Shown: piece by piece, positions 2,956-44,634 of the stretch
Numbering within the stretch: position 1 is the first letter of the stretch
How the letters are laid out: each line of letters begins with the position of its first letter
Source: Streptomyces sp. NBC_00539
GTDB taxonomy: Bacteria > Actinomycetota > Actinomycetes > Streptomycetales > Streptomycetaceae
Direction of reading: 5' to 3'
Length of the DNA stretch: 64,000 nt
Assembly: GCF_036346105.1 (NCBI RefSeq)
Contig: NZ_CP107811.1
Location: 4,669,501-4,733,500, forward strand
Program-made: the position numbers and the translations under genes
The notes under the pieces: model-generated
What the model was told of the DNA's origin: nothing
Seen by the model: the letters and a program-made list of their open reading frames with translations, nothing else
The model's database searches: none

Positions 2956-4042
2956 CCCCGCCCTTGCCGTCCCCGCCGTGGCCGGCTCCGCCCGCCCCCG
3001 TACCGCCGCCCGCGCCGGAACCCGAGCCGGTGAACACGTCGCGGAGCTTGCCGCCGAGGTCGCCCGCACCGCCGGCTATGTCGCCGACCAGCTTCATCAG
3101 CGGATCCTTGCTGCTGCGCACGGAGTCCGCGTAGTGCGAGGCGGACTCCCGGAAGGAGTCGCCCACCGAGGTGTCCTTGTCCTCGTCCCGCCGCGGGTAG
3201 TGGCCGTCCATGATCCGCTGGTAGTCCCGGCTCTGCGACCACTTCTTGAGCTCGGCCGCTCGCACCGTGGTGAAGGGATGCGTGCGCGGCAGCATGTTGA
3301 GGATCTTGAGGACGGAGTCCCGCAGGTCACCGCTCTCCTCGTACTCCTCGGCCTGCGCAAGGAAGGCGTCCACGTTCATCTCGTGCAGGTGGTGGCCGCC
3401 GGCCAGCTTCATCAGCCCGCGCATAGAGGCGTGCACGTCCTGCCCCGCCAGCAGCCCGGCCCGGTCCGCCGACAGCTCCGACTTGCGGAACCACTCCCGC
3501 AGCGCGGTGACGATCGCCATGATCGCCACATTGCCCAGCGGGATCCACGCCACCTTGAGCGCCAGGTTCGTCAGGAACAGCAGGACCGTGCGGTACACGG
3601 CGTGCCCGGACAGTGCGTGGCCCACCTCGTGGCCGACGACCGCCCGCATCTCCTCCTCGTCGAGCAGTTCGACCAGGCCCGTCGTCACCACGATGATCGG
3701 CTCGTCCAGCCCGATGCACATCGCGTTCGGCTTCGGATCCTGCTGCACGTACATCTGCGGGACCTGCTCCAGGTCCAGGACGTAGCAGGCGTCGAGCAGC
3801 ATCCCGTGCAGGTGGGGGAACTGCGTCTCGCCCACCCGGACCGAATCCGACAGGAACAGCAGGCGCAGGCTCCGCTCCGGCAGCAGCCCGCTGAGGGCCT
3901 TGAACACCGTGTCGAACCCGCTGAGTTTGCGCAGCGCGACCAGCGCCGAGCGGTCCGCCGGATGCTCGTAGGCCCGCGACGAGATGCCGGGGAACCTCCT
4001 GCGGTTCCGGGCCGGTACCTTCTCGGATCCGGTGTTCGTCAT
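2942..4042 (-). CDS. M48 family zinc metalloprotease (HtpX/Ste24-like)
   Basis: Membrane-associated zinc protease, 366 residues. The zinc-binding HEVGH lies at about residue 139 in VVGHEVGHALSGHA, and the downstream SELSADRAG supplies the third ligand. A hydrophobic stretch around residues 155-180 probably sits in the membrane between the two. The C-terminus is a Gly/Ser-rich low-complexity tail not needed for catalysis. The start is the ATG at 4042 giving MTNTGSEKVP. A longer open frame exists upstream but has no family similarity. Proteases of this class degrade misfolded membrane proteins; the substrate here is unknown. The gene is convergent with and overlaps its left neighbour by 14 bases. 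Confidence 0.9.
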   Translation of the reverse strand: MTNTGSEKVPARNRRRFPGISSRAYEHPADRSALVALRKLSGFDTVFKALSGLLPERSLRLLFLSDSVRVGETQFPHLHGMLLDACYVLDLEQVPQMYVQQDPKPNAMCIGLDEPIIVVTTGLVELLDEEEMRAVVGHEVGHALSGHAVYRTVLLFLTNLALKVAWIPLGNVAIMAIVTALREWFRKSELSADRAGLLAGQDVHASMRGLMKLAGGHHLHEMNVDAFLAQAEEYEESGDLRDSVLKILNMLPRTHPFTTVRAAELKKWSQSRDYQRIMDGHYPRRDEDKDTSVGDSFRESASHYADSVRSSKDPLMKLVGDIAGGAGDLGGKLRDVFTGSGSGAGGGTGAGGAGHGGDGKGGATEQ

Positions 4043-4180
4043 GACGCCCTCCCCCTGGATAGACCTGTGTGCTCGCGTCCATCCTCTCCAACGCCTGAGT
4101 CGGCGTGAGGGTGCCCGGGGCCCCCGCATACGATGTGAGGGAAGTCTCCGCTCCCTCCCGACTCGATAGGTACCTGCCTG

Positions 4181-4348
4181 ATGAGCCTCTCCACCACCAC
4201 CCACAACCTGGTCGTTCTCGCCTCGGAGGGTGCCGAGCAGCACGGCGGCAACCACGACAGCCTGAGCCCCTACCTGACCGGTGGCGGCGCCTTCTGCGTG
4301 CTGCTGCTCCTGCTGTGGGTGACCACGCGCCTCAACCGCGACCGCTAG
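4181..4348 (+). CDS. Small single-pass membrane protein, 55 residues
   Basis: A short ORF, ATG at 4181 to TAG at 4346-4348, encodes 55 residues. It has a polar, His/Glu/Gly-containing N-terminal half, one strongly hydrophobic segment (FCVLLLLLW, about residues 38-46) and a basic end (RLNRDR). This fits a small membrane protein with its C-terminus in the cytoplasm by the positive-inside rule. It sits between the divergent M48 protease and nadD, in what would otherwise be an empty stretch. No Shine-Dalgarno is obvious, and a TAGGTA hexamer (4167-4172) ends 8 bases upstream, so it may be leaderless. Function unknown. The call rests on composition and position. Confidence 0.6.
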
Positions 4349-4446
4349 ACCCGTTGTCCGAGCGCACCGCCCGGCTGCCCGAGCCCCCGGGCGCACGCTC
4401 GAATGCGGGTCCGGGACGGGCCGCCGGGCCAGTAGGCTCTGCGCTC

Positions 4447-5064
4447 ATGGGAGAGCAGGGAACGCCTACCGGCCCGGTCAAGCGCCGCCTCGGCGTGATG
4501 GGCGGGACATTCGATCCGATCCACCACGGACACCTGGTGGCCGCCAGTGAGGTGGCCGCCCTCTTCCACCTCGACGAGGTGGTGTTCGTACCGACCGGCC
4601 AGCCGTGGCAGAAGTCGCACAGCGTCGTCTCCCCGGCCGAGGACCGCTACCTCATGACCGTCATCGCGACGGCCTCGAACCCGCAGTTCTCGGTGAGCCG
4701 CATCGACATCGACCGCGGCGGCCCGACGTACACCATCGACACCCTGCGGGACCTGAGCGCCCTCAACCACGACTCCGACCTGTTCTTCATCACCGGGGCG
4801 GATGCCCTCGCCCAGATCCTGACCTGGCGCAACGCCGAGGAGCTGTTCTCCCTCGCGCACTTCATCGGAGTGACCCGGCCGGGCCACGTGCTGACCGACG
4901 ACGGGCTGCCCGAGGGCGGTGTCTCCCTGGTCGAGGTGCCCGCGCTGGCGATCTCGTCCACCGACTGCCGGGCGCGCGTCGCGCAGGGCGACCCCGTTTG
5001 GTATTTGGTGCCGGACGGTGTCGTGCGCTACATCGACAAGCGTGAGCTGTACCGGGGAGCCTGA
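4447..5064 (+). CDS. nadD: Nicotinate-nucleotide adenylyltransferase
   Basis: Adenylates nicotinate mononucleotide to deamido-NAD in NAD biosynthesis. 205 residues, normal for the family. The N-terminal nucleotidyltransferase motif [11 protein letters not shown] is present, and the C-terminal [10 protein letters not shown] matches the conserved ISST site. The start ATG at 4447 gives MGEQGTPTG and is preceded by TAGGCT (4433-4438) with no clear ribosome site, so the transcript may begin at or near the start codon. The next gene starts 29 bases downstream. The order nadD, LytR-type gene, rsfS is common in actinobacteria and suggests one transcript. Confidence 0.96.
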
Positions 5065-5093
5065 GCTTCCGGTTCAGCAGAGAGGGGCCCGCG

Positions 5094-6785
5094 GTGAACG
5101 ACCGCCAGGATCCGTACGACCCGTACGCCGCCCAGGAGCAGCAGCTCATCGGCTACGACCCGTACGGCCGGCCGGTGTACGGCCCTGCGCCCGCCCAGGC
5201 CCCCGCCCCCGCGTACGAGCAGCCGTACGGCTACGACCACCAGGGCTACGCCCCCCAGCAGCCCTACCCGCAGCAGCAGCAGCCCGCCCAGGACCACGGC
5301 ACTCAGGGCGGGGCGTACGGCCAGGAGCAGTACGCGCCCGGCCCCGGCTACGGGTACGACACCCAGCAGGCCCAGCAGTGGATCCCGCAGCAGCATGCCC
5401 CGCAGGAGCAGGCTCCCGGGCAGCAGGCGCCCCGGCAGCAGCCCGCCCCGGACCCCCGGCCGGCCCCCCAGGTCCCCCAGCCGCGCCGGGCCGCCCCCGG
5501 ACCCGGGACCGAGCCCGAAGCCGGCCGGGACTACCGCACCGAGATGTTCGCCTTCATCGACCAGCCGGACGAGGAGTCCGAGGACGTCATCGACTGGCTC
5601 GCCTTCACCGAGAGCCGCACCGAACGCCGCGAGGAGGCCCGCCGCCGGGGCCGCAACCGGACCGTCGCGCTGATCGTCGTCCTCGCCTTGATCGTCGTCG
5701 GCGGCGCCGGCTACCTCTGGTACGCGGGCAAGCTCCCCTTCCTCGACGGGCCCGGTGGTCAGAAGAAGCCCGCGGCCGCGACCGGGGCACAGAAGCGGGA
5801 CATGATCGTCGTCCACGTGCTCAACACGAAGAAGGGCGGCTCCTCCACGCTGCTGCTCGTCGACAACGTGACCACGAAGCAGGGCGCCACCGTCCTGCTG
5901 CCGAACACCCTGAACGTCCCCAAGGAGGACGGCACCGGCCAGCCGCTGTCCAAGTCGGTCGAGGACGGCGGCATCGGCACCCGCGAGTCCCTCGACTCGG
6001 TCCTCGGCACCCGCATCGGCGGCACCTGGCGCCTGGACACCCCCTTCCTGGAGCGGCTCGTCGAGCTGGTCGGCGGCATCGAGGTCGATACCGACACCGC
6101 CGTCCCGGCCGACGACCAGGCGAAGACCCCGGCCGTGTCCCAGGGCGCCAAGCAGAGCCTGACCGGTGCGATGGCCGTCGCCTACGCCACCCACCGCGCC
6201 CAGGGCGAGCCGGAGACCAAGCAGCTGGAGCGGCTCGGCAAGGTGCTGTACGCCGTCCTGCGCAAGATCCCCGCCGACCCGAAGGCGGCGGCGGTGACCG
6301 TCGAGAGCATGGGCCAGATCCTGGACCCGGCGCTGAACGCGCAGAACCTGGGCGCGCTGCTGTCGCGGATCGGGGAGCACGCCAAGGTGGGCGCCTACCG
6401 CACCGAGGTGCTCCCGGTGAAGCCGGACGGCGGCCTCGGCGACGACGCCGGCAAGAAGGCCGTCGACGAGATCCTCGGCGGCTCCGCCGCGGCGGTCCCC
6501 GGCGCCGCTCCCCGGATCGGCCTCAAGGACGCCACCGGAGACGAGAAGGCGCAGCTCGCGGCGAAGGCGGCGCTGCTGAACGGCGGCTACACGCTCGTCG
6601 AGGGCGGCAAGGCCGACAAGAGCGCGGCGCTCTCGCAGATCACCTACCGGGACGAGGCGCAGCGGGCCAAGGCGGTCGAGGTGGCCAAGACGCTGGGGCT
6701 GCCGGAGACGGCCGTCAAGAAGGCCGAGAGCGCGGTGAACGCGGACGTCGTGGTGGTCCTGGGCAAGGACTACAAGGCGTCCTGA
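5094..6785 (+). CDS. LytR-CpsA-Psr-like membrane protein with a LytR C-terminal domain; divergent LCP domain
   Basis: 563 residues. The N-terminal 140 or so are Gln/Pro/Tyr-rich and disordered. A short conserved acidic segment follows (about 143-165), then one membrane helix (about 183-205), an extracellular LCP-type domain (about 235-410) and a LytR_C-type domain (about 470-560). LCP enzymes transfer phosphate-linked polymers onto peptidoglycan. Here the usual S-I-P-R-D segment reads LLPNTLNVP and the later Y-V-R-x-R segment reads AYATHRAQ, so the arginines that bind the pyrophosphate are largely missing. The GTG start has GAGAGGGG upstream. It lies in the nadD-rsfS group. Fold likely; transferase activity doubtful. 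Confidence 0.8.
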   Translation: MNDRQDPYDPYAAQEQQLIGYDPYGRPVYGPAPAQAPAPAYEQPYGYDHQGYAPQQPYPQQQQPAQDHGTQGGAYGQEQYAPGPGYGYDTQQAQQWIPQQHAPQEQAPGQQAPRQQPAPDPRPAPQVPQPRRAAPGPGTEPEAGRDYRTEMFAFIDQPDEESEDVIDWLAFTESRTERREEARRRGRNRTVALIVVLALIVVGGAGYLWYAGKLPFLDGPGGQKKPAAATGAQKRDMIVVHVLNTKKGGSSTLLLVDNVTTKQGATVLLPNTLNVPKEDGTGQPLSKSVEDGGIGTRESLDSVLGTRIGGTWRLDTPFLERLVELVGGIEVDTDTAVPADDQAKTPAVSQGAKQSLTGAMAVAYATHRAQGEPETKQLERLGKVLYAVLRKIPADPKAAAVTVESMGQILDPALNAQNLGALLSRIGEHAKVGAYRTEVLPVKPDGGLGDDAGKKAVDEILGGSAAAVPGAAPRIGLKDATGDEKAQLAAKAALLNGGYTLVEGGKADKSAALSQITYRDEAQRAKAVEVAKTLGLPETAVKKAESAVNADVVVVLGKDYKAS

Positions 6786-34742: not shown

Positions 34743-35801
34743 ATGACTCAGACACCGACAGCCCGTACCCCAGCGCCGGGGCAGGCGCGAGCCCACTTCA
34801 CCGTACCGGCCACGCATCCGATGGTGACCGTACTGGGCTCTGGTGACGCCCTGCTGCGCGTCATCGAGAATGCCTTCCCGAAGGCCGACATCCATGTTCG
34901 GGGCAATCAGGTCAGCGCGATCGGCGACGCGGTGGAAGTCGCCCTGATCCAGCGCCTGTTCGACGAGATGATGCTGGTGCTCCGCACCGGGCAGTCGATG
35001 ACGGAGGACGCAGTGGAACGCTCGATCGCCATGCTCAAGGCGAACGGCAAGGGCAACGGCGGCGACAGCGGCCACGACGAGACCCCCGCCGAGGTGCTCA
35101 CCCAGAACATCCTCTCCAGTCGCGGCCGGACCATCCGTCCCAAGACGCTCAACCAGAAGCGCTACGTCGACGCCATCGACAAGAACACCATCGTCTTCGG
35201 CATCGGCCCCGCCGGTACCGGCAAGACCTACCTCGCCATGGCCAAGGCGGTCCAGGCCCTGCAGTCCAAGCAGGTCAGCCGGATCATCCTGACCCGCCCC
35301 GCCGTCGAGGCGGGCGAACGGCTCGGGTTCCTGCCGGGCACCCTGTTCGACAAGATCGACCCGTACCTGCGTCCGCTGTACGACGCCCTGCACGACATGC
35401 TCGACCCGGACTCGATCCCCCGCCTGATGGCCGCCGGCACCATCGAGGTCGCGCCGCTCGCGTACATGCGCGGGCGCACCCTCAACGACGCCTTCGTCGT
35501 CCTGGACGAGGCGCAGAACACGACCGCCGAGCAGATGAAGATGTTCCTGACCCGCCTGGGCTTCGATTCGAAGATCGTCGTCACCGGTGACATCACGCAG
35601 ATCGACCTGCCGGGCGGGGCCAAGAGCGGCCTGCGCCAGGTGCAGGAGATCCTCGACGGGGTGCCGGACATCCACTTCTCGCGGCTCACCTCCGAGGATG
35701 TCGTCCGGCACAAGCTGGTCGGCCGTATCGTCGACGCGTACGAGAAGTACGACGACAGCCAGGACTCCCCGCAGTCCCGGAACGGCTACCAGCGGAAGTA
35801 G
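34743..35801 (+). CDS. phoH: PhoH family ATPase
   Basis: 352 residues from ATG at 34743. Cytosolic P-loop ATPase related to helicase cores, often linked to RNA metabolism through its ybeY neighbour. Walker A is [13 protein letters not shown] and Walker B is VVLDEAQN. The conserved [17 protein letters not shown] and [10 protein letters not shown] are intact. The N-terminal 90 residues are a KH-like domain ([13 protein letters not shown]). ybeY begins 13 bases after its stop, so this is the head of the phoH-ybeY-corC operon. Confidence 0.95.
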
Positions 35802-35814
35802 AACTCAGCGCACC

Positions 35815-36312
35815 ATGTCGATCGACGTCAACAACGAGTCCGGGATCGAGGTCGACGAGCAGGCGGTCCTCGACATCGCCCGCTACGCGCTCACCCGGAT
35901 GCGGATCCACCCGCTGTCCGAGCTGTCCGTCATCGTCGTCGACGAGGAGGCGATGGAGCAGCTCCACATCCAGTGGATGGACCTGCCCGGTCCCACCGAC
36001 GTCATGTCCTTCCCGATGGACGAGCTGCGCCCCCCGGCGAAGGACGACGAGGAGCCCCCGCAGGGGCTCCTCGGCGACATCGTGCTCTGCCCCGAGGTGG
36101 CGAAGCGGCAGGGCGAGGAAGCTCCGACGCAGCACTCCATGGACGAGGAGCTCCAGCTCCTGACCGTCCACGGGGTGCTGCACCTGCTCGGGTACGACCA
36201 CGAGGAGCCGGACGAGAAGGCCGAGATGTTCGGCCTCCAGGCGGCCATCGTCGACGGCTGGCGCGGTGAGCGCGGCCTGACCGGCCCGTCCCCCGCCCCC
36301 ACCGTCTCGTGA
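35815..36312 (+). CDS. ybeY: rRNA maturation endoribonuclease YbeY
   Basis: 165 residues. Zinc-dependent single-strand endoribonuclease for 16S rRNA 3' processing and ribosome quality control. The metal motif [11 protein letters not shown] (H-x3-H-x5-H) and the preceding [11 protein letters not shown] match the family. The ATG at 35815 is a normal start. The stop overlaps the next start as GTGA, showing translational coupling within the phoH operon. Confidence 0.96.
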
Positions 36313-38961: not shown

Positions 38962-40266
38962 TCAGGCCGCGGCCGGGGCACCGGACCGGCGGCGGATGAC
39001 CATCGCCATCAGGGCGGCCATCGCGCAGAGGGCGCCCGCCGCGTACCAGACCAGGTCGTACGAGCCGAAGGCGTCGCGGGCCAGGCCGCTCAGGAAGGCC
39101 ACCAGGGCCGCGCCGACCTGGTGCGACGCCAGGACCCAGCCGAAGACGATGGCGCTGTCCTCCCCGTACTGCTCCCGGCACAGCGCGATGGTGGGCGGCA
39201 CGGTCGCGACCCAGTCCAGGCCGTAGAAGACGATGAAGAACACCATCGGCGGGTGCACGGACGGCGCCATCAGCATCGGCAGGAACAGGAGCGAGACCCC
39301 GCGCAGGGCGTAGTACACCGCCAGCAGCCGGCGCGGCTGGAAGCGGTCCGTGAACCAGCCGGAGGCGATGGTGCCGACCACGTCGAACACGCCGACCACC
39401 GCGAGCAGCCCGGCCGCCGCCGTCACCGGCATGCCGTGGTCGTGGGCCGCGGGCACGAAGTGGGTGCGCACCAGCCCGTTCGTCGTGGCGCCGCAGATCG
39501 CGAAGGTGCCGGCCAGGAGCCAGAAGGGGCCGGTCCGGACCGCCTTGAACAGCACTGACAGCGCTCGCCCCGCCGCACCCCGCACCGGCTCGGGCTTGGC
39601 CGCGTAGGTCCCCCCGTACGGTGCGAGCCCCACATCGGCGGGGTGGTCGCGCAGCAGCAGCCATACGAACGGCACCACGACCGCCGCGGCCAGCGACACC
39701 GTCACCGCGCCCGGGCGCCAGCCGTGCCGTTCCACCAGCCATGACAGCAGCGGCAGGAAGAGCAGCTGCCCGGAGGCCCCGGCCGCGGTCAGGATCCCGG
39801 TGACGAGCCCCCGGCGGGCGGTGAACCAGCGGTTGGTCACGGTCGCGGCGAACGCCATGGCCATCGAGCCACTGCCGAGGCCGACCACCACGCCCCACAG
39901 CAGGACCAGTTGCCAGGCCTCGGTCATCCAGACCGTGGCGAGCGCCCCGCCGGATATGACGAGCAGGGCCAGCGCCACGACCCGGCGGATGCCGAAGCGG
40001 TCCATCAGCGCGGCCGCGAACGGTGCGGTGAGCCCGTACAGGGCGAGGTTGACGGAGACGGCGAAGCCGACGGTGCCGCGCGACCAGTCGAACTCCTCGT
40101 GCAGCGGCTCGATGAGCAGTCCGGGCAGGGACGCGAACGCGGCGGCGCCGACGATCGTCACGAAGGCGACGGCCGCGACGAACCAGGCGCGGTGGACGCG
40201 TCCGGGCCGGCGGGGAGCGAAGGGGGGATCGGCGGAGGGGGCGGGTACGGGCGCTGTCTGAGTCAC
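38962..40266 (-). CDS. MFS transporter (monocarboxylate/oxalate-formate type)
   Basis: 434 residues, 12 predicted membrane helices. The N-terminal FDWSRGTVGFAVSVNLALYGLTAP and MDRFGIRRV (cytoplasmic loop motif) and the middle GMPVTAAAGLLAVVGVFDVVGTIASG match the monocarboxylate-type branch. The start GTG at 40266 has GGAAG at good spacing; GTG at 40272 and a longer upstream frame are less likely. It is divergent from a GlxA-type regulator with a 70-base gap, so that regulator probably controls it. Substrate unknown. Confidence 0.88.
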   Translation of the reverse strand: MTQTAPVPAPSADPPFAPRRPGRVHRAWFVAAVAFVTIVGAAAFASLPGLLIEPLHEEFDWSRGTVGFAVSVNLALYGLTAPFAAALMDRFGIRRVVALALLVISGGALATVWMTEAWQLVLLWGVVVGLGSGSMAMAFAATVTNRWFTARRGLVTGILTAAGASGQLLFLPLLSWLVERHGWRPGAVTVSLAAAVVVPFVWLLLRDHPADVGLAPYGGTYAAKPEPVRGAAGRALSVLFKAVRTGPFWLLAGTFAICGATTNGLVRTHFVPAAHDHGMPVTAAAGLLAVVGVFDVVGTIASGWFTDRFQPRRLLAVYYALRGVSLLFLPMLMAPSVHPPMVFFIVFYGLDWVATVPPTIALCREQYGEDSAIVFGWVLASHQVGAALVAFLSGLARDAFGSYDLVWYAAGALCAMAALMAMVIRRRSGAPAAA

Positions 40267-40324
40267 CAGCACAGCTTCCGACCAGGGGGATCCGCACGAC
40301 AGTGGCCTGAACGACACGCTTCGC

Positions 40325-40330
40325 TATGAT
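40325..40330 (+). promoter_or_regulatory. -10 hexamer of the GlxA-type regulator gene
   Basis: TATGAT ends 6 bases before the ATG, which predicts a leaderless mRNA. It lies in the 70-base divergent gap shared with the MFS gene. Confidence 0.55.
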
Positions 40331-40336
40331 CGGGCC

Positions 40337-41368
40337 ATGGAGCCCCGCACGCACCGCGTCGTCGTCCTCGCCCTCGCCGGACTGCTGCCCTTCGAGCTCG
40401 GCATCCCGCACCGGATCTTCGGCCGCGCCAAGGATCCGGCCGGACGTCCGCTGTACGAGATCCTCACCTGCGGCCTGTCCGCGGGACAGGTGCCCACCGA
40501 CGCCGACTTCGCGGTCCACGTCGAGCACGGACCGGAGCTGCTCGCCACGGCCGACACGGTCGTGGTGCCGGCCTCGTACGAGCTCGGGCCGGTGTACGAG
40601 CACGGCAGGCTCACGGACGAACTCGCCGCCGCGCTGGCCCACATCCGGCCCGGAACCCGGCTCGTCTCCATCTGTACGGGCGGCTACGTCCTGGCCGCCG
40701 CCGGGTACCTGGACGGCCGGCGCGCCACGACGCACTGGGCGTCCGCCACGCACTTCCAGCGGCTGTTCCCCGAGGTGCTCGTCGACGCCGACGTGCTCTA
40801 CACCGACGACGGGGACGTCCTCACCTCCGCCGGGGTCGCCGCCGGCATCGACCTGTGCCTGCACATCGTGCGCCGCGACCACGGCGCGGCCGTCGCCAAC
40901 GAGGTGGCCCGGCGGACGGTGGTGCCGCCCCACCGGGACGGCGGGCAGGCCCAGTTCACGGAGCGCCCGGTGCCCGAGCCGCAGCTGGCCAGCACCACCG
41001 CCGCGCGGGCCTGGGTGCTGGAGCGGCTGCACGAGCCGGTCCGGCTGAGCGACCTGGCCCGGCAGGAGGCCGTGTCGGTACGGACGTTCACGCGCCGGTT
41101 CCGCGAGGAGGCCGGGGTGAGCCCCGGCGAGTGGATCGTCGCGCAACGGGTGGAGCGGGCCCGGCGGTTGCTGGAGCGGACGGAGCTGCCGATGGAACAG
41201 GTGGCGCGGGAGACGGGGTTCGGTACGGCGCAGTCGCTGCGCAAGCACGTACGGGCCGCCCTGGGGGTCAGCCCGACGGCCTACCGCAGGACGTTCCGGG
41301 CCGACGCCGACTGCGACTTGCTGCCATCTTCTGATGGCCCATCAGTCGATGTGGGGGCCGCACATTGA
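40337..41368 (+). CDS. GlxA family AraC-type transcriptional regulator
   Basis: 343 residues. The N-terminal DJ-1/PfpI-like domain (about 1-190) carries SICTGGYVLAAAGYLDGRRATTHW with the conserved cysteine. The C-terminal AraC helix-turn-helix pair (about 225-320) includes LSDLARQEAVSVRTFTRRF and VARETGFGTAQSLRKHVRAALG. Such regulators sense small metabolites. It is divergent from the MFS transporter, the usual layout for a local regulator and its target. The ATG at 40337 has TATGAT just upstream and no Shine-Dalgarno. Confidence 0.9.
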   Translation: MEPRTHRVVVLALAGLLPFELGIPHRIFGRAKDPAGRPLYEILTCGLSAGQVPTDADFAVHVEHGPELLATADTVVVPASYELGPVYEHGRLTDELAAALAHIRPGTRLVSICTGGYVLAAAGYLDGRRATTHWASATHFQRLFPEVLVDADVLYTDDGDVLTSAGVAAGIDLCLHIVRRDHGAAVANEVARRTVVPPHRDGGQAQFTERPVPEPQLASTTAARAWVLERLHEPVRLSDLARQEAVSVRTFTRRFREEAGVSPGEWIVAQRVERARRLLERTELPMEQVARETGFGTAQSLRKHVRAALGVSPTAYRRTFRADADCDLLPSSDGPSVDVGAAH

Positions 41369-41427
41369 CTTCTCCCGCCCACCGCCCCTGAATGGCCCCC
41401 GGGCCGGACCAACCCAGGGGGCGGGCA

Positions 41428-42763
41428 GTGGGGACAGCGGCGCGCAGCACGAGAGGGCCGGTGGCGCTCGCCGGCCTGGCCGTCCTCGCGGCCGTCACAG
41501 GGGGAGCGCTGGGTGCCCCGGCCGCCGCCGAAGAGGGAACGGCCCCGGGGCGGGTCGAGTTCCCCACGCACTGCCTGCCGCCCCAGGAAGCCGGGCTGCC
41601 GCCCGCCGAGGGGCCCACCGCGGCCCGGATCACCGCCGACGATCCGGCGCCGAAGGTCGGCGACACCGTCACCGTGACCTACCAGCTGGCCGCGACCCCG
41701 GCCGTCAACCCCGTCCCCGGCGCGCTGCCCGCCGACGTACTCACCCCCACCGGGGCGGGTCGTGCTCGGGGGCGCGCAGCAGGGCGAGCTCACCGTCGTC
41801 GGCGCCCCGCGCAACGACCCCGTACCGGCGGGGGAGGAGCTGCCCGGGGTGACCATGACCGGCACCTTCACCGTCACCGCACCCGGCGCGATCACCCTCG
41901 CCCCGGGCGGCTACACCCTGCACACCCGGCACCTGGGCGACCTGGACACCGTCTGCACCCCGGCCGCGCCCGCGCCCGTATCGGAACGCCTGACCGCCAC
42001 CCCGCTGCCGAGGGCCAACCTGCGCGCCCTGACGCTGGGGTCCGCCCACGGGAAACCCGGTGCGGCGGTCGAAGTCTCCGGCACCGGCTTCGCCCCGGGC
42101 GCGGCCGTCACCGTGGCGGGCCGCGCGGGAGTCGCCGAGACCGCCGACCGGGTGGCCGCCACGGCCGACGGGGCGGGCGAGGTCCGGGCGGAGCTGCCCG
42201 TCAGGGACAGGGCGACGACGGGCGTGGTGGCGTACGAAGGCACCGGGTGGTCGGCGCAGCGGGGCTCCGGCGTCGCGGCGTACACGGTCATCGCCGCCGT
42301 CGCCGTGCCGCCCGGGGCGCAGGAGGTGACGGCGGTGGTGGAGCCGGGCGCGCTGGCGATGACGCAGGCCGGGGATTCCGTCACCCTGGGCGGAGTCCCC
42401 TACGGCGACGGGGGCGCGGCGCCCGGCCGGATCGGCACCGTCACCGTCAAGGACGCCCGGGGCGGCCCCGCGGGGTGGTCGCTGGTCGGCAAGGTCACCG
42501 ACTTCACGGGGCCGGGCGGTGTGCGCATCCCGGGGGCGTCCCTGTCGTGGACGCCGAGCTGCACGGCGGCTCCGGGCAGCCCCAGCCGGTGCTTGGCGGG
42601 CAGCCCCGGGGTGGTGGGCGCCGAGGGCGCCGTCCTCGCCTCGGCCCCCGACGCGGCGGTGGTGGGCGGCACGTTCACCGTCGACGCGGGAGTGGAGCTC
42701 CGGGTACCGCCGTACACCCCGCCCGGGGCGTACACGGCGGTCCTGACGCTGACCCTGTCGTGA
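41428..42763 (+). pseudogene. WxL-domain-like exported surface protein, frameshifted
   Basis: Two frames join into one protein. The first (from GTG 41428, with AGGGGG upstream) gives a signal peptide (GLAVLAAVTGGALGAPAAA) and a beta-rich segment ending ADVLTPTG near 41754. The second resumes with VVLGGAQQGELTVVG and runs to the TGA at 42761-42763. Removing one G from the run at 41752-41755 restores a single frame of about 444 residues. The C-terminal part has W-S-L followed by VTDFTGPGG, IPGASLSW, and an ending PGAYTAVLTLTLS, which resembles a WxL cell-wall-binding domain. The last bases overlap the next gene as GTGA. Could be a true pseudogene or a sequence error. Confidence 0.7.
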
Positions 42764-43692
42764 ACGGCGCCGCCGCGCGGTGGGTGGCCGGCGCCCTGGC
42801 CCTGCTCGGGGCGCTGCTGGCGGGCGCCGCCGGGACGGCGTGGGGCGCCGACAACGGGGAGTGGTCCGTACTGCCCGCCGCCAACGCCGTCGGGCAGCGC
42901 CCGTACTTCTACCTCGCCGCCGCCCCCGGAACCACCGTCCGGGACGTCGTCACCGTCACCAACCGGACCGGCCGGCCCCGCACCTTCCGCCTCTACGCCG
43001 CCGACGCCTACAACACCGCCCGCGACGGCGGCTTCGCCGTGCGCGGCCCCGACGAGCCGCGCCGCGCCACCGCCGCCTGGACCGCACTCGCCCGGGACCG
43101 GGTGACCGTCCCGGCCCGGGGCTCGGCAGGCGTCGCCCTGACCGTCACCGTCCCGGAGCGGGCCGAGCCCGGGGACCACCCCGGCGCCGTCGTCGCCCTG
43201 GAGGACGAGCCGGCCGCGACCACCTCCGACCCCGGCATCGGGGTGCGACGGGCCGTCGCCGCCCGCCTCTACCTCCGGGTCACCGGACCCACCGCCCCCG
43301 CACTCGCCGTCCGGGACGTCCGGGTCCGCGCCGACGGCGACGGCGCGGAGATCACGTACGCCCTCCGCAACCTCGGCAACGTCACCCTCCGGCCCCGCAT
43401 CACCCTCACCGCCACCGGCACGGCAGGCCGAACCCCGGCGGCCCTCCCGCTCGGCGGCCCGCCGGCGGAGCTGCTGCCCGGCCAGGAGGTGCGGCTGCGC
43501 AGCCGGTGGGCCGATCCGCCCGCCCTGGAATGGGCCCGGCTGACCGTGCGGGCCGACGACGCCGGAGCGAGCGCCGAAGGCACCGCCGACTACGCGCGCC
43601 ACCCCCGGCTCACGGCCGCTCTGGCCGCCGCTCTGGCCCTCGCGGCCGTGGCCTGGTCGGCGCTGGGAGCGGCATCGGGGAGAATGGCCCGT
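42760..43692 (+). CDS. DUF916/WxL peptidoglycan-domain-like membrane protein, open in frame into era
   Basis: About 311 residues before the era start. A signal peptide (ALALLGALLAGAAGTAWG) precedes an immunoglobulin-like domain with ANAVGQRPYFYLAAAPGTTVRDVVTVTNRTG, typical of DUF916-type partners of WxL proteins. A second beta domain (ITYALRNLGNVTLRPRITL) and one C-terminal membrane helix (LTAALAAALALAAVAWSALG) follow. The GTG start overlaps the WxL-like gene's stop. There is no stop codon between the helix and the era ATG, so translation would continue into Era. In the +2 frame a TGA at 43694-43696 would give the usual ATGA overlap, hinting at a one-base indel near the 3' end. Confidence 0.65.
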
Positions 43693-44634
43693 ATGAGCGA
43701 TCGTTCCCCCGAGCCCACCGCCCCGCACCGCGCGGGCTTCGCCTGCTTCGTCGGCCGCCCCAACGCGGGCAAGTCGACCCTGACCAACGCGCTCGTGGGC
43801 ACCAAGGTCGCGATCACCTCGAACCGGCCGCAGACCACCCGCCACACCGTTCGCGGCATCGTGCACCGGCCCGACGCCCAGCTGGTGCTGGTCGACACCC
43901 CCGGCCTCCACAAGCCGCGCACCCTGCTCGGCGAGCGCCTCAACGACGTCGTCCGGACCACGTGGGCCGAGGTCGACGTCATCGGCTTCTGCCTGCCGGC
44001 CGACCAGAAGCTGGGCCCCGGCGACAAGTTCATCGCGAAGGAACTCGCGGGGATCAAGAAGACCCCCAAGATCGCCATCGTGACCAAGACCGACCTGGTC
44101 GAATCCAAGCAGCTGGCCGAGCAGCTCCTGGCCATCCACCAGCTGGGCGCGGAGCTCGGCTTCGAGTGGGCCGAGATCGTCCCCGTGTCGGCGGTCGGCG
44201 ACAGCCAGGTCCAGCTGCTCGCGGACCTCATCGCGCCGCTGCTGCCGGAGAGCCCGCCGCTGTACCCCGAGGGCGACCTCACCGACGAACCCGAGATGGT
44301 GATGGTCGCGGAACTCATCCGCGAGGCCGCGCTGGAGGGCGTGCGCGACGAGCTCCCGCACTCGATCGCGGTGGTCGTGGAGGAGATGATCCCCCGGGAG
44401 AACCGTCCGGCGGACCGCCCGCTGCTCGACATCCACGCGAACGTCTACATCGAGCGGCCCAGCCAGAAGGGCATCATCATCGGCCCGAAGGGCTCCCGCC
44501 TCAAGGAGGTCGGGATGAAGTCGCGCAAGCACATCGAGGCGCTGCTCGGCACGCCCGTCTTCCTCGACCTGCACGTGAAGGTGGCGAAGGACTGGCAGCG
44601 GGACCCGAAGCAGCTGCGCAAGCTGGGCTTCTGA
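43693..44634 (+). CDS. era: GTPase Era, 16S rRNA assembly factor
   Basis: 313 residues from ATG at 43693 (MSDRSPEP). Essential GTPase that binds the 16S rRNA 3' end and the membrane. The G motifs GRPNAGKST, DTPGLHKP and TKTDLVE and the C-terminal KH domain with IIIGPKGSRLKEVG are intact. GAGAAT (43680-43685) ends 7 bases before the start, suggesting its own leaderless promoter inside the end of the upstream gene. The upstream frame is open into Era without a stop. A bidirectional hairpin follows. Confidence 0.96.
   Translation: MSDRSPEPTAPHRAGFACFVGRPNAGKSTLTNALVGTKVAITSNRPQTTRHTVRGIVHRPDAQLVLVDTPGLHKPRTLLGERLNDVVRTTWAEVDVIGFCLPADQKLGPGDKFIAKELAGIKKTPKIAIVTKTDLVESKQLAEQLLAIHQLGAELGFEWAEIVPVSAVGDSQVQLLADLIAPLLPESPPLYPEGDLTDEPEMVMVAELIREAALEGVRDELPHSIAVVVEEMIPRENRPADRPLLDIHANVYIERPSQKGIIIGPKGSRLKEVGMKSRKHIEALLGTPVFLDLHVKVAKDWQRDPKQLRKLGF

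Follow-up and report, generated by a model that had tools for sequence, protein, structure and literature searches.

In one Streptomyces clade the WxLIP-like gene of a surface pair is open in frame into era across a candidate era control element

The window, a 64,000-nt stretch of the genome of Streptomyces sp. NBC_00539 (NZ_CP107811.1, positions 4,669,501 to 4,733,500), contains two neighbouring frames for exported-looking proteins directly 5′ of era, within the phoH-ybeY-era region (PhoH match at 35133-35744, YbeY match at 35860-36252), the position in which the first-pass annotation had placed them. The features of the locus, in window coordinates, are as follows.

40337..41368, + strand: DJ-1/PfpI and AraC-type regulator (Pfam), about 60 nt 5′ of p1
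41428..42763, + strand: protein 1 (p1), exported-looking, with an N-terminal beta domain, a neocarzinostatin-like middle domain and a C-terminal WxL-like domain; frame broken near 41755-41761
42311..42760, + strand: WxL-like C-terminal domain of p1, with a proximal GWSL and a distal YTAVLTLTLS lacking Trp; PF13731 at 21.4 bits (cut-off 25)
42760..44634, + strand: single open p2-Era frame of 624 aa; signal-peptide-like start, PGBD, second Ig-like domain, TM helix, short linker, Era GTPase
42760..43692, + strand: protein 2 (p2) part of that frame, WxLIP-like, with a GTG start and without a stop codon of its own
43609..43665, + strand: predicted TM helix of p2, LTAALAAALALAAVAWSAL, followed by GAASGRMAR and then Era; hydropathy 2.04, modelled helix at 282-296
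43653..43692, + strand: conserved element 5′ of era, nested in the final p2 codons; blocks at -40..-31 and -21..-6 from the era ATG
43693..44634, + strand: era, GTPase and KH domain; MMR_HSR1 77.6 bits, KH_2 59 bits

The p1 stop and the GTG start of p2 share the sequence GTGA, so the coupling of the two genes is as originally described, and the W-S-L, VTDFTG and IPGASLSW segments used to recognise p1 are all found in it. What has to be corrected is the end of p2, which had been set at 43692: this is merely the last base before the era ATG, and no stop codon interrupts the frame from the GTG (42760) to the end of era (44634). The resulting frame runs from a signal-peptide-like start through two beta domains, a hydrophobic helix and the residues GAASGRMAR to the MSDRSPEP... 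of Era, and the Era part has GRPNAGKST, DTPG, TKTD and GPKG together with the C-terminal KH domain. This era is the sole full-length match in the 7.5-Mb genome, beside four partial, distant ones. On its sequence, translation from the p2 start should yield a membrane protein of 624 residues whose Era part is predicted to face the cytoplasm. That the missing stop reflects an error in sequencing this genome was ruled out, since 25 named genomes carry the same junction.

In the assembled sequence the p1 frame is broken near 41755-41761, where 7 nt lie between the aligned halves in the window against 6 in two relatives (L034 and L036). Elsewhere the gene is largely intact: p1 reads in one frame in 24 of the 25 fused loci, these 24 all having a GTGA or ATGA overlap between p1 and p2, and in 78 of the 80 named Streptomyces loci taken as the best of 183 p2 relatives, so that the pair is not limited to one strain. 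The break also puts the N-terminal part of p1 in the frame of p2 and era, which gives an uninterrupted frame of 1080 codons at 41392-44634 made up of p1-N, out-of-frame p1-C, p2 and Era.

The reading of the pair as WxL protein and DUF916 partner stood for p2, which is above the PF06030 cut-off, but for p1 only in a weaker form, the PF13731 match lying below the cut-off. The export of p1 was judged by eye from its N-terminus, and the WxL-like domain is C-terminal in three alignments (A1, A4 and A6); the N-terminal beta domain and the neocarzinostatin-like middle domain come from the fold of an intact S. cirratus relative, for which the VIA-align matches listed all fall on these first two domains. 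PF13731 scored 19.0 bits on the C-terminal part of the window p1 and 21.4 bits on its isolated domain (curated cut-off 25), and among ten isolated domains (window, eight relatives and the genome's own paralogue) that of S. bambusae alone exceeded the cut-off, at 29.6 bits. All 21 members of A6 matched the model at E up to 0.1, and the isolated domain of L170 gave no match at E up to 0.01. The proximal motif is WSL or WTL in 73 of the 78 p1 proteins (the search pattern missed five), and a Trp that would mark a second motif was present in the last 14 residues in none of the 78. Profiles of p1 matched no PDB sequence (A1 at E up to 1, A6 at E up to 10), and NCBIfam gave only weak or sub-cut-off names for p1 and p2.

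For p2 the family assignment is firmer: PF06030 (PGBD/DUF916) scored 30.9 bits on the window protein (cut-off 27.3) and matched at E up to 0.1 in 26 of 26 members of alignment A5. The N-terminus is hydrophobic by eye, and the C-terminal TM segment is predicted from its hydropathy and the modelled helix. When the modelled p2 was compared with known folds, the top two matches were E. faecium WxLIP, and the p2 profile reached the same protein at E 2.6e-4 with the broader alignment (A5) and at only E 0.14 with the narrower one (A2). The model of the whole fusion has a mean pLDDT of 50.1, with blocks after residue 300 mostly at 20-46, and only its p2 half is interpreted; we blame the near-identity of the era rows for the low quality of the Era half. 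It is very improbable that the two genes are unrelated secreted beta-sandwich proteins adjoining era by chance. While the sub-cut-off score of the window p1 would fit such an origin, as would the second p2 domain, in which DUF3324/HBD (PF11797) was detected in 0 of the 26 A5 members, it is hard to reconcile with the fold matches to WxLIP, with the maintenance of p1 in one frame across nearly all p2 loci, or with the fact that the only two places in the 7.5-Mb genome with a WxL signal at E up to 1 both lie directly 5′ of a DUF916 gene. We read p1 and p2 as an actinobacterial WxL-like/WxLIP surface pair. Relatives of p2 occur in 62 of 197 sampled Actinomycetes genomes, with up to seven matches per genome.

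The same genome holds a second WxL-like/WxLIP-like pair (L064, at about 4.543-4.552 Mb), in which a p1-type gene (5005-6297 of that locus, - strand) lies directly 5′ of a p2-type gene (3846-4892, - strand), with WxLIP_PGBD at 38 bits and WxL at 20.4 bits, the latter below its cut-off. A third DUF916 match, at 24 bits and also below the cut-off, lies near 5152-5469 of a locus at about 4.232-4.241 Mb (L065). On one side it has a protein of 230 aa that ends in an LPQTG-like sequence (Gram_pos_anchor at 17.3 bits, under the cut-off), and on the other a frame whose neocarzinostatin-type domain scores 25.6 bits (cut-off 25), followed by a 429-aa protein with a TM end.

Pairs of the WxL/WxLIP type have been described mostly from Bacilli (PMC10599100, where WxLIP is defined, and PMC9772566), and the latter places more than 91% of WxL sequences in Firmicutes. 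With the Bacilli clusters (DUF916, DUF3324 and TM segment; E. faecium 9i1y and 9i25) p2 shares a signal-peptide-like start, a PGBD above the Pfam cut-off, a second Ig-like domain, a C-terminal TM helix and a best fold match that extends over both domains, and the adjacent exported partner likewise ends in a WxL-like domain. Unlike WxLIP of Bacilli, however, the second domain of p2 is unmatched by the DUF3324 model and its TM end is fused to Era in this Streptomyces clade, while p1 differs from the WxL proteins of Bacilli in having one WxL motif, a distal motif without Trp and a neocarzinostatin-like middle domain. The putative membrane-anchored protein 3lso of Corynebacterium diphtheriae gave 12% identity and a TM-score of 0.34 over the whole model. 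We know of no function for 3lso and of no demonstrated WxL end.

To define the extent of the fusion we examined two sets of genomes, which overlap and whose counts are not additive. In a scan of named Streptomyces genomes with the p2 alignment, from which the best 80 of 183 relatives were taken as loci, p2 is in frame with era at 25 (L110-L134), including S. cirratus, S. xanthophaeus, S. goshikiensis, S. avidinii, S. virginiae, S. lavendulae, S. katrae, S. yangpuensis, S. amritsarensis, S. bambusae and further strains. Three of these (L118, L122 and L123) had a p2 core missed by a short motif test, yet their p2 match is unbroken up to the junction. The other 55 of the best 80 comprise 50 in which p2 stops 20 to 3262 nt 5′ of era, four with era absent from the fetched stretch, and one, L170 (Streptomyces sp. 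NRRL S-118), rejected as a fusion since its p2 reads a short way into era out of frame and terminates there. On a nucleotide tree of era (77 rows) the 26 fused rows, i.e. the window and the 25 loci, all fall on one side of a single branch (100/99, in a tree whose bootstrap was not fully settled), and several independent origins within the sampled loci were rejected on this ground. In the two rows that branch deepest among the fused ones (S. bambusae and NRRL S-87), a helix and then arginines precede the junction residues, as expected if the tail of p2 and the spacer shrank.

In one of the fused loci, that of Streptomyces sp. H27-H5 (L131, which appears to be the same genome as L103), an in-frame deletion has produced a natural p1-p2-Era triple fusion (2740-5301 of L131), with the first part of p1, the remainder of p2 and Era in one frame. 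Upstream, an MFS gene (- strand) and the DJ-1/AraC regulator (+ strand) occupy window 38962-41368, between a corC-like gene and p1. Within 5-kb flanks the DJ-1/PfpI-AraC regulator was found at 23 of 25 fused and 0 of 55 non-fused loci and the MFS gene at 21 of 25 and 0 of 55, respectively; the fusion and both genes therefore fall in the same clade. The p1-p2-era genes may be under the control of this putative regulator.

The second set came from a scan of 393 Streptomyces genomes with a 50-mer spanning the junction, allowing up to three mismatches, which found 25 genomes, the window's included (a reversed control pattern found none). In 18 of them p2 is in frame with era at the junction, being whole (at least from the start of the mature domain) in 15 and damaged in three (G054, G046 and G167); one more has a degraded remnant (G078), and six have no recognisable p2. 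Among these six, G362, G071 and G134 retain p1 wholly or partly, G250 has neither gene within 4 kb, and in G309 and G331, whose contigs start about 0.1 and 1.2 kb upstream, neither gene is present in the remaining sequence. Both blocks of the conserved element are retained in all seven of these (the six without p2 and G078), differences being confined to the spacer; as these genomes were found with a pattern containing the blocks, the count is biased, although mismatches were allowed anywhere and were seen in the spacer.

Across the 26 fused rows the two blocks (-40..-31 and -21..-6) have an identity of 0.96-1.00 per column, compared with 0.73-1.00 in the spacer. In 47 of the 55 non-fused rows the second block is likewise largely the same and the first partly so, the remaining eight being four without era in the locus and four missed by the filter. 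Over the last 14 codons of p2, change at the three codon positions is equally rare (0.044/0.046/0.040), whereas the ectodomain has the third-position excess of a coding sequence (0.178/0.151/0.288), and we therefore place the constraint at the junction at the level of the DNA. The roughly 40 nt before the era ATG look, from their conservation, like era's own control element, and the persistence of near-invariant blocks beyond the life of p2, together with the flat codon positions, makes it seem that the junction DNA is held for era while also coding for the helix end and linker. A hexamer, GAGAAT or GACAAT, sits 7 nt before the era ATG. According to the S. coelicolor transcription map, TANNNT is the usual -10 motif and 21% of primary starts are leaderless (PMC4895711). 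The placement of the hexamer, which lacks the first T of TANNNT, suggests a putative leaderless promoter, with a ribosome-binding site as the alternative.

To ask how p2 has fared since the fusion, we compared 24 fused genes, leaving out the two deepest rows (L132 and L133). Their last 285 codons before era are free of stops, and every one of the 103 internal gap runs has a length divisible by three, these runs being related by descent and so not independent events. An initial count on seven genes had given a pN/pS of 0.55 for p2 and 0.09 for era. In the larger comparison, by simple NG86 pairwise means and without a significance test on the difference between clades, p2 reached 0.52 in the fused clade (23 genes after a length filter) versus 0.35 in the non-fused sister clade (14), p1 0.38 (21) versus 0.36 (12), and era 0.10 (24) versus 0.11 (14). 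The TM helix is also the weaker one in the fused clade, with a median hydropathy of 1.93 in 26 fused rows compared with 2.29 in 54 non-fused rows, and values under 1.6 in five of 26 (two of them the deepest rows) against 0 of 54. In-frame gaps, the lack of stops, the higher pN/pS and the weaker helix together indicate that p2 is still coding in the fused clade, yet relaxed. These data bear on the view that p2 is silent or decaying in the clade, era alone being expressed from the nested element and the fused frame never translated. It could account for the raised pN/pS of p2, for the broken p1 of the window and for the loss or damage of p2 in ten of the 25 junction-bearing genomes; we consider it improbable, as pN/pS is still 0.52, the third-position excess and the in-frame gaps persist, and p1 is kept in one frame, with its overlap, at nearly every fused locus.

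We slightly favour a fusion that is tolerated beside free Era made from the nested element. By analogy with E. faecium, p2 would be exported and anchored by its C-terminal helix, and its PGBD would retain p1 at the wall by the WxL-like end. An ancestor of the S. lavendulae/virginiae/bambusae group would have lost the tail and stop codon of p2 along with the spacer before era, which would have brought p2 into frame with era. A ribosome starting at p2 would then make, from the frame observed, a predicted type I membrane protein whose cytoplasmic tail is Era. Free Era would be made from era's own start, driven by the conserved element, whose presence is observed and whose activity is presumed, and which would now also encode the linker and the last part of the p2 helix. 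Fused Era would mainly be a tolerated passenger, the essential work being done by the free form. We prefer this because pN/pS is raised in p2 while p1 and era hardly differ between the clades, because TM hydropathy is weaker in the fused clade, and because p2 is damaged in three and lost or a remnant in seven of the 25 junction-bearing genomes.

A counterpoint is that none of the 25 named loci on the fused side has a stop in the frame, which could mean that the fusion is wanted. Moreover, a one-base slip before the element would terminate p2 at a TGA overlapping the era ATG, an arrangement found in none of the 25 fused loci. Such a slip would have to fall within a short stretch, which makes its absence weak evidence of this kind, and with little free sequence between helix and element in which a stop could arise, retention of the frame needs no selection. 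If the fusion were nonetheless functional, p2 would act as a tether that keeps a dedicated Era pool at the membrane, under the WxL-like complex, and the state of the envelope would be linked through the PGBD and TM helix to the GTPase or KH domain of Era and hence to 30S assembly near the membrane. The single origin on the era tree, the model-based topology with Era in the cytoplasm and the membrane association of streptococcal Era (known to us from titles cited in PMC10582724) agree with such a tether, which we regard as a minority possibility: the reduced constraint on p2, its less hydrophobic helix and its absence from six junction-bearing genomes and remnant state in a seventh all point the other way, and that review describes fusions of Era as extremely rare, with steric constraints on the nascent subunit as the probable reason. 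It is unlikely that the product is an envelope protein with a cytoplasmic Era through which an outer peptidoglycan- and WxL-binding complex controls or positions 30S maturation, free Era being made separately from the nested element.

The DUF916-Era fusion as such is already on record. The 2023 review of Era (PMC10582724), in the part available to us, names it from InterPro among fusions that are difficult to interpret, and lists Era proteins with extra N-terminal domains (YbeY-Era, and DUF916 'in certain Streptomyces sp.') of which p2-Era has, as far as can be told, the same architecture. A literature search found no analysis of the origin or extent of DUF916-Era or of a nested element, and a whole-word search for DUF916 with Era returned, beyond this review, none that looked like an Era paper. 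Relative to what we could see of the review, the restriction to one clade, the derivation from a surface gene pair, the nested era element and the losses of p2 are described here.

These results supply an origin for DUF916-Era, namely the 3′ end of a WxL-like/WxLIP gene pair whose stop codon was lost once, and they extend pairs of the WxL/WxLIP type to Streptomyces and the WxLIP-like half to other Actinomycetes as well. The clade provides natural comparisons among fused, unfused and p2-less states, and, if the fusion is functional, it would join the cell wall and ribosome assembly physically and directly.
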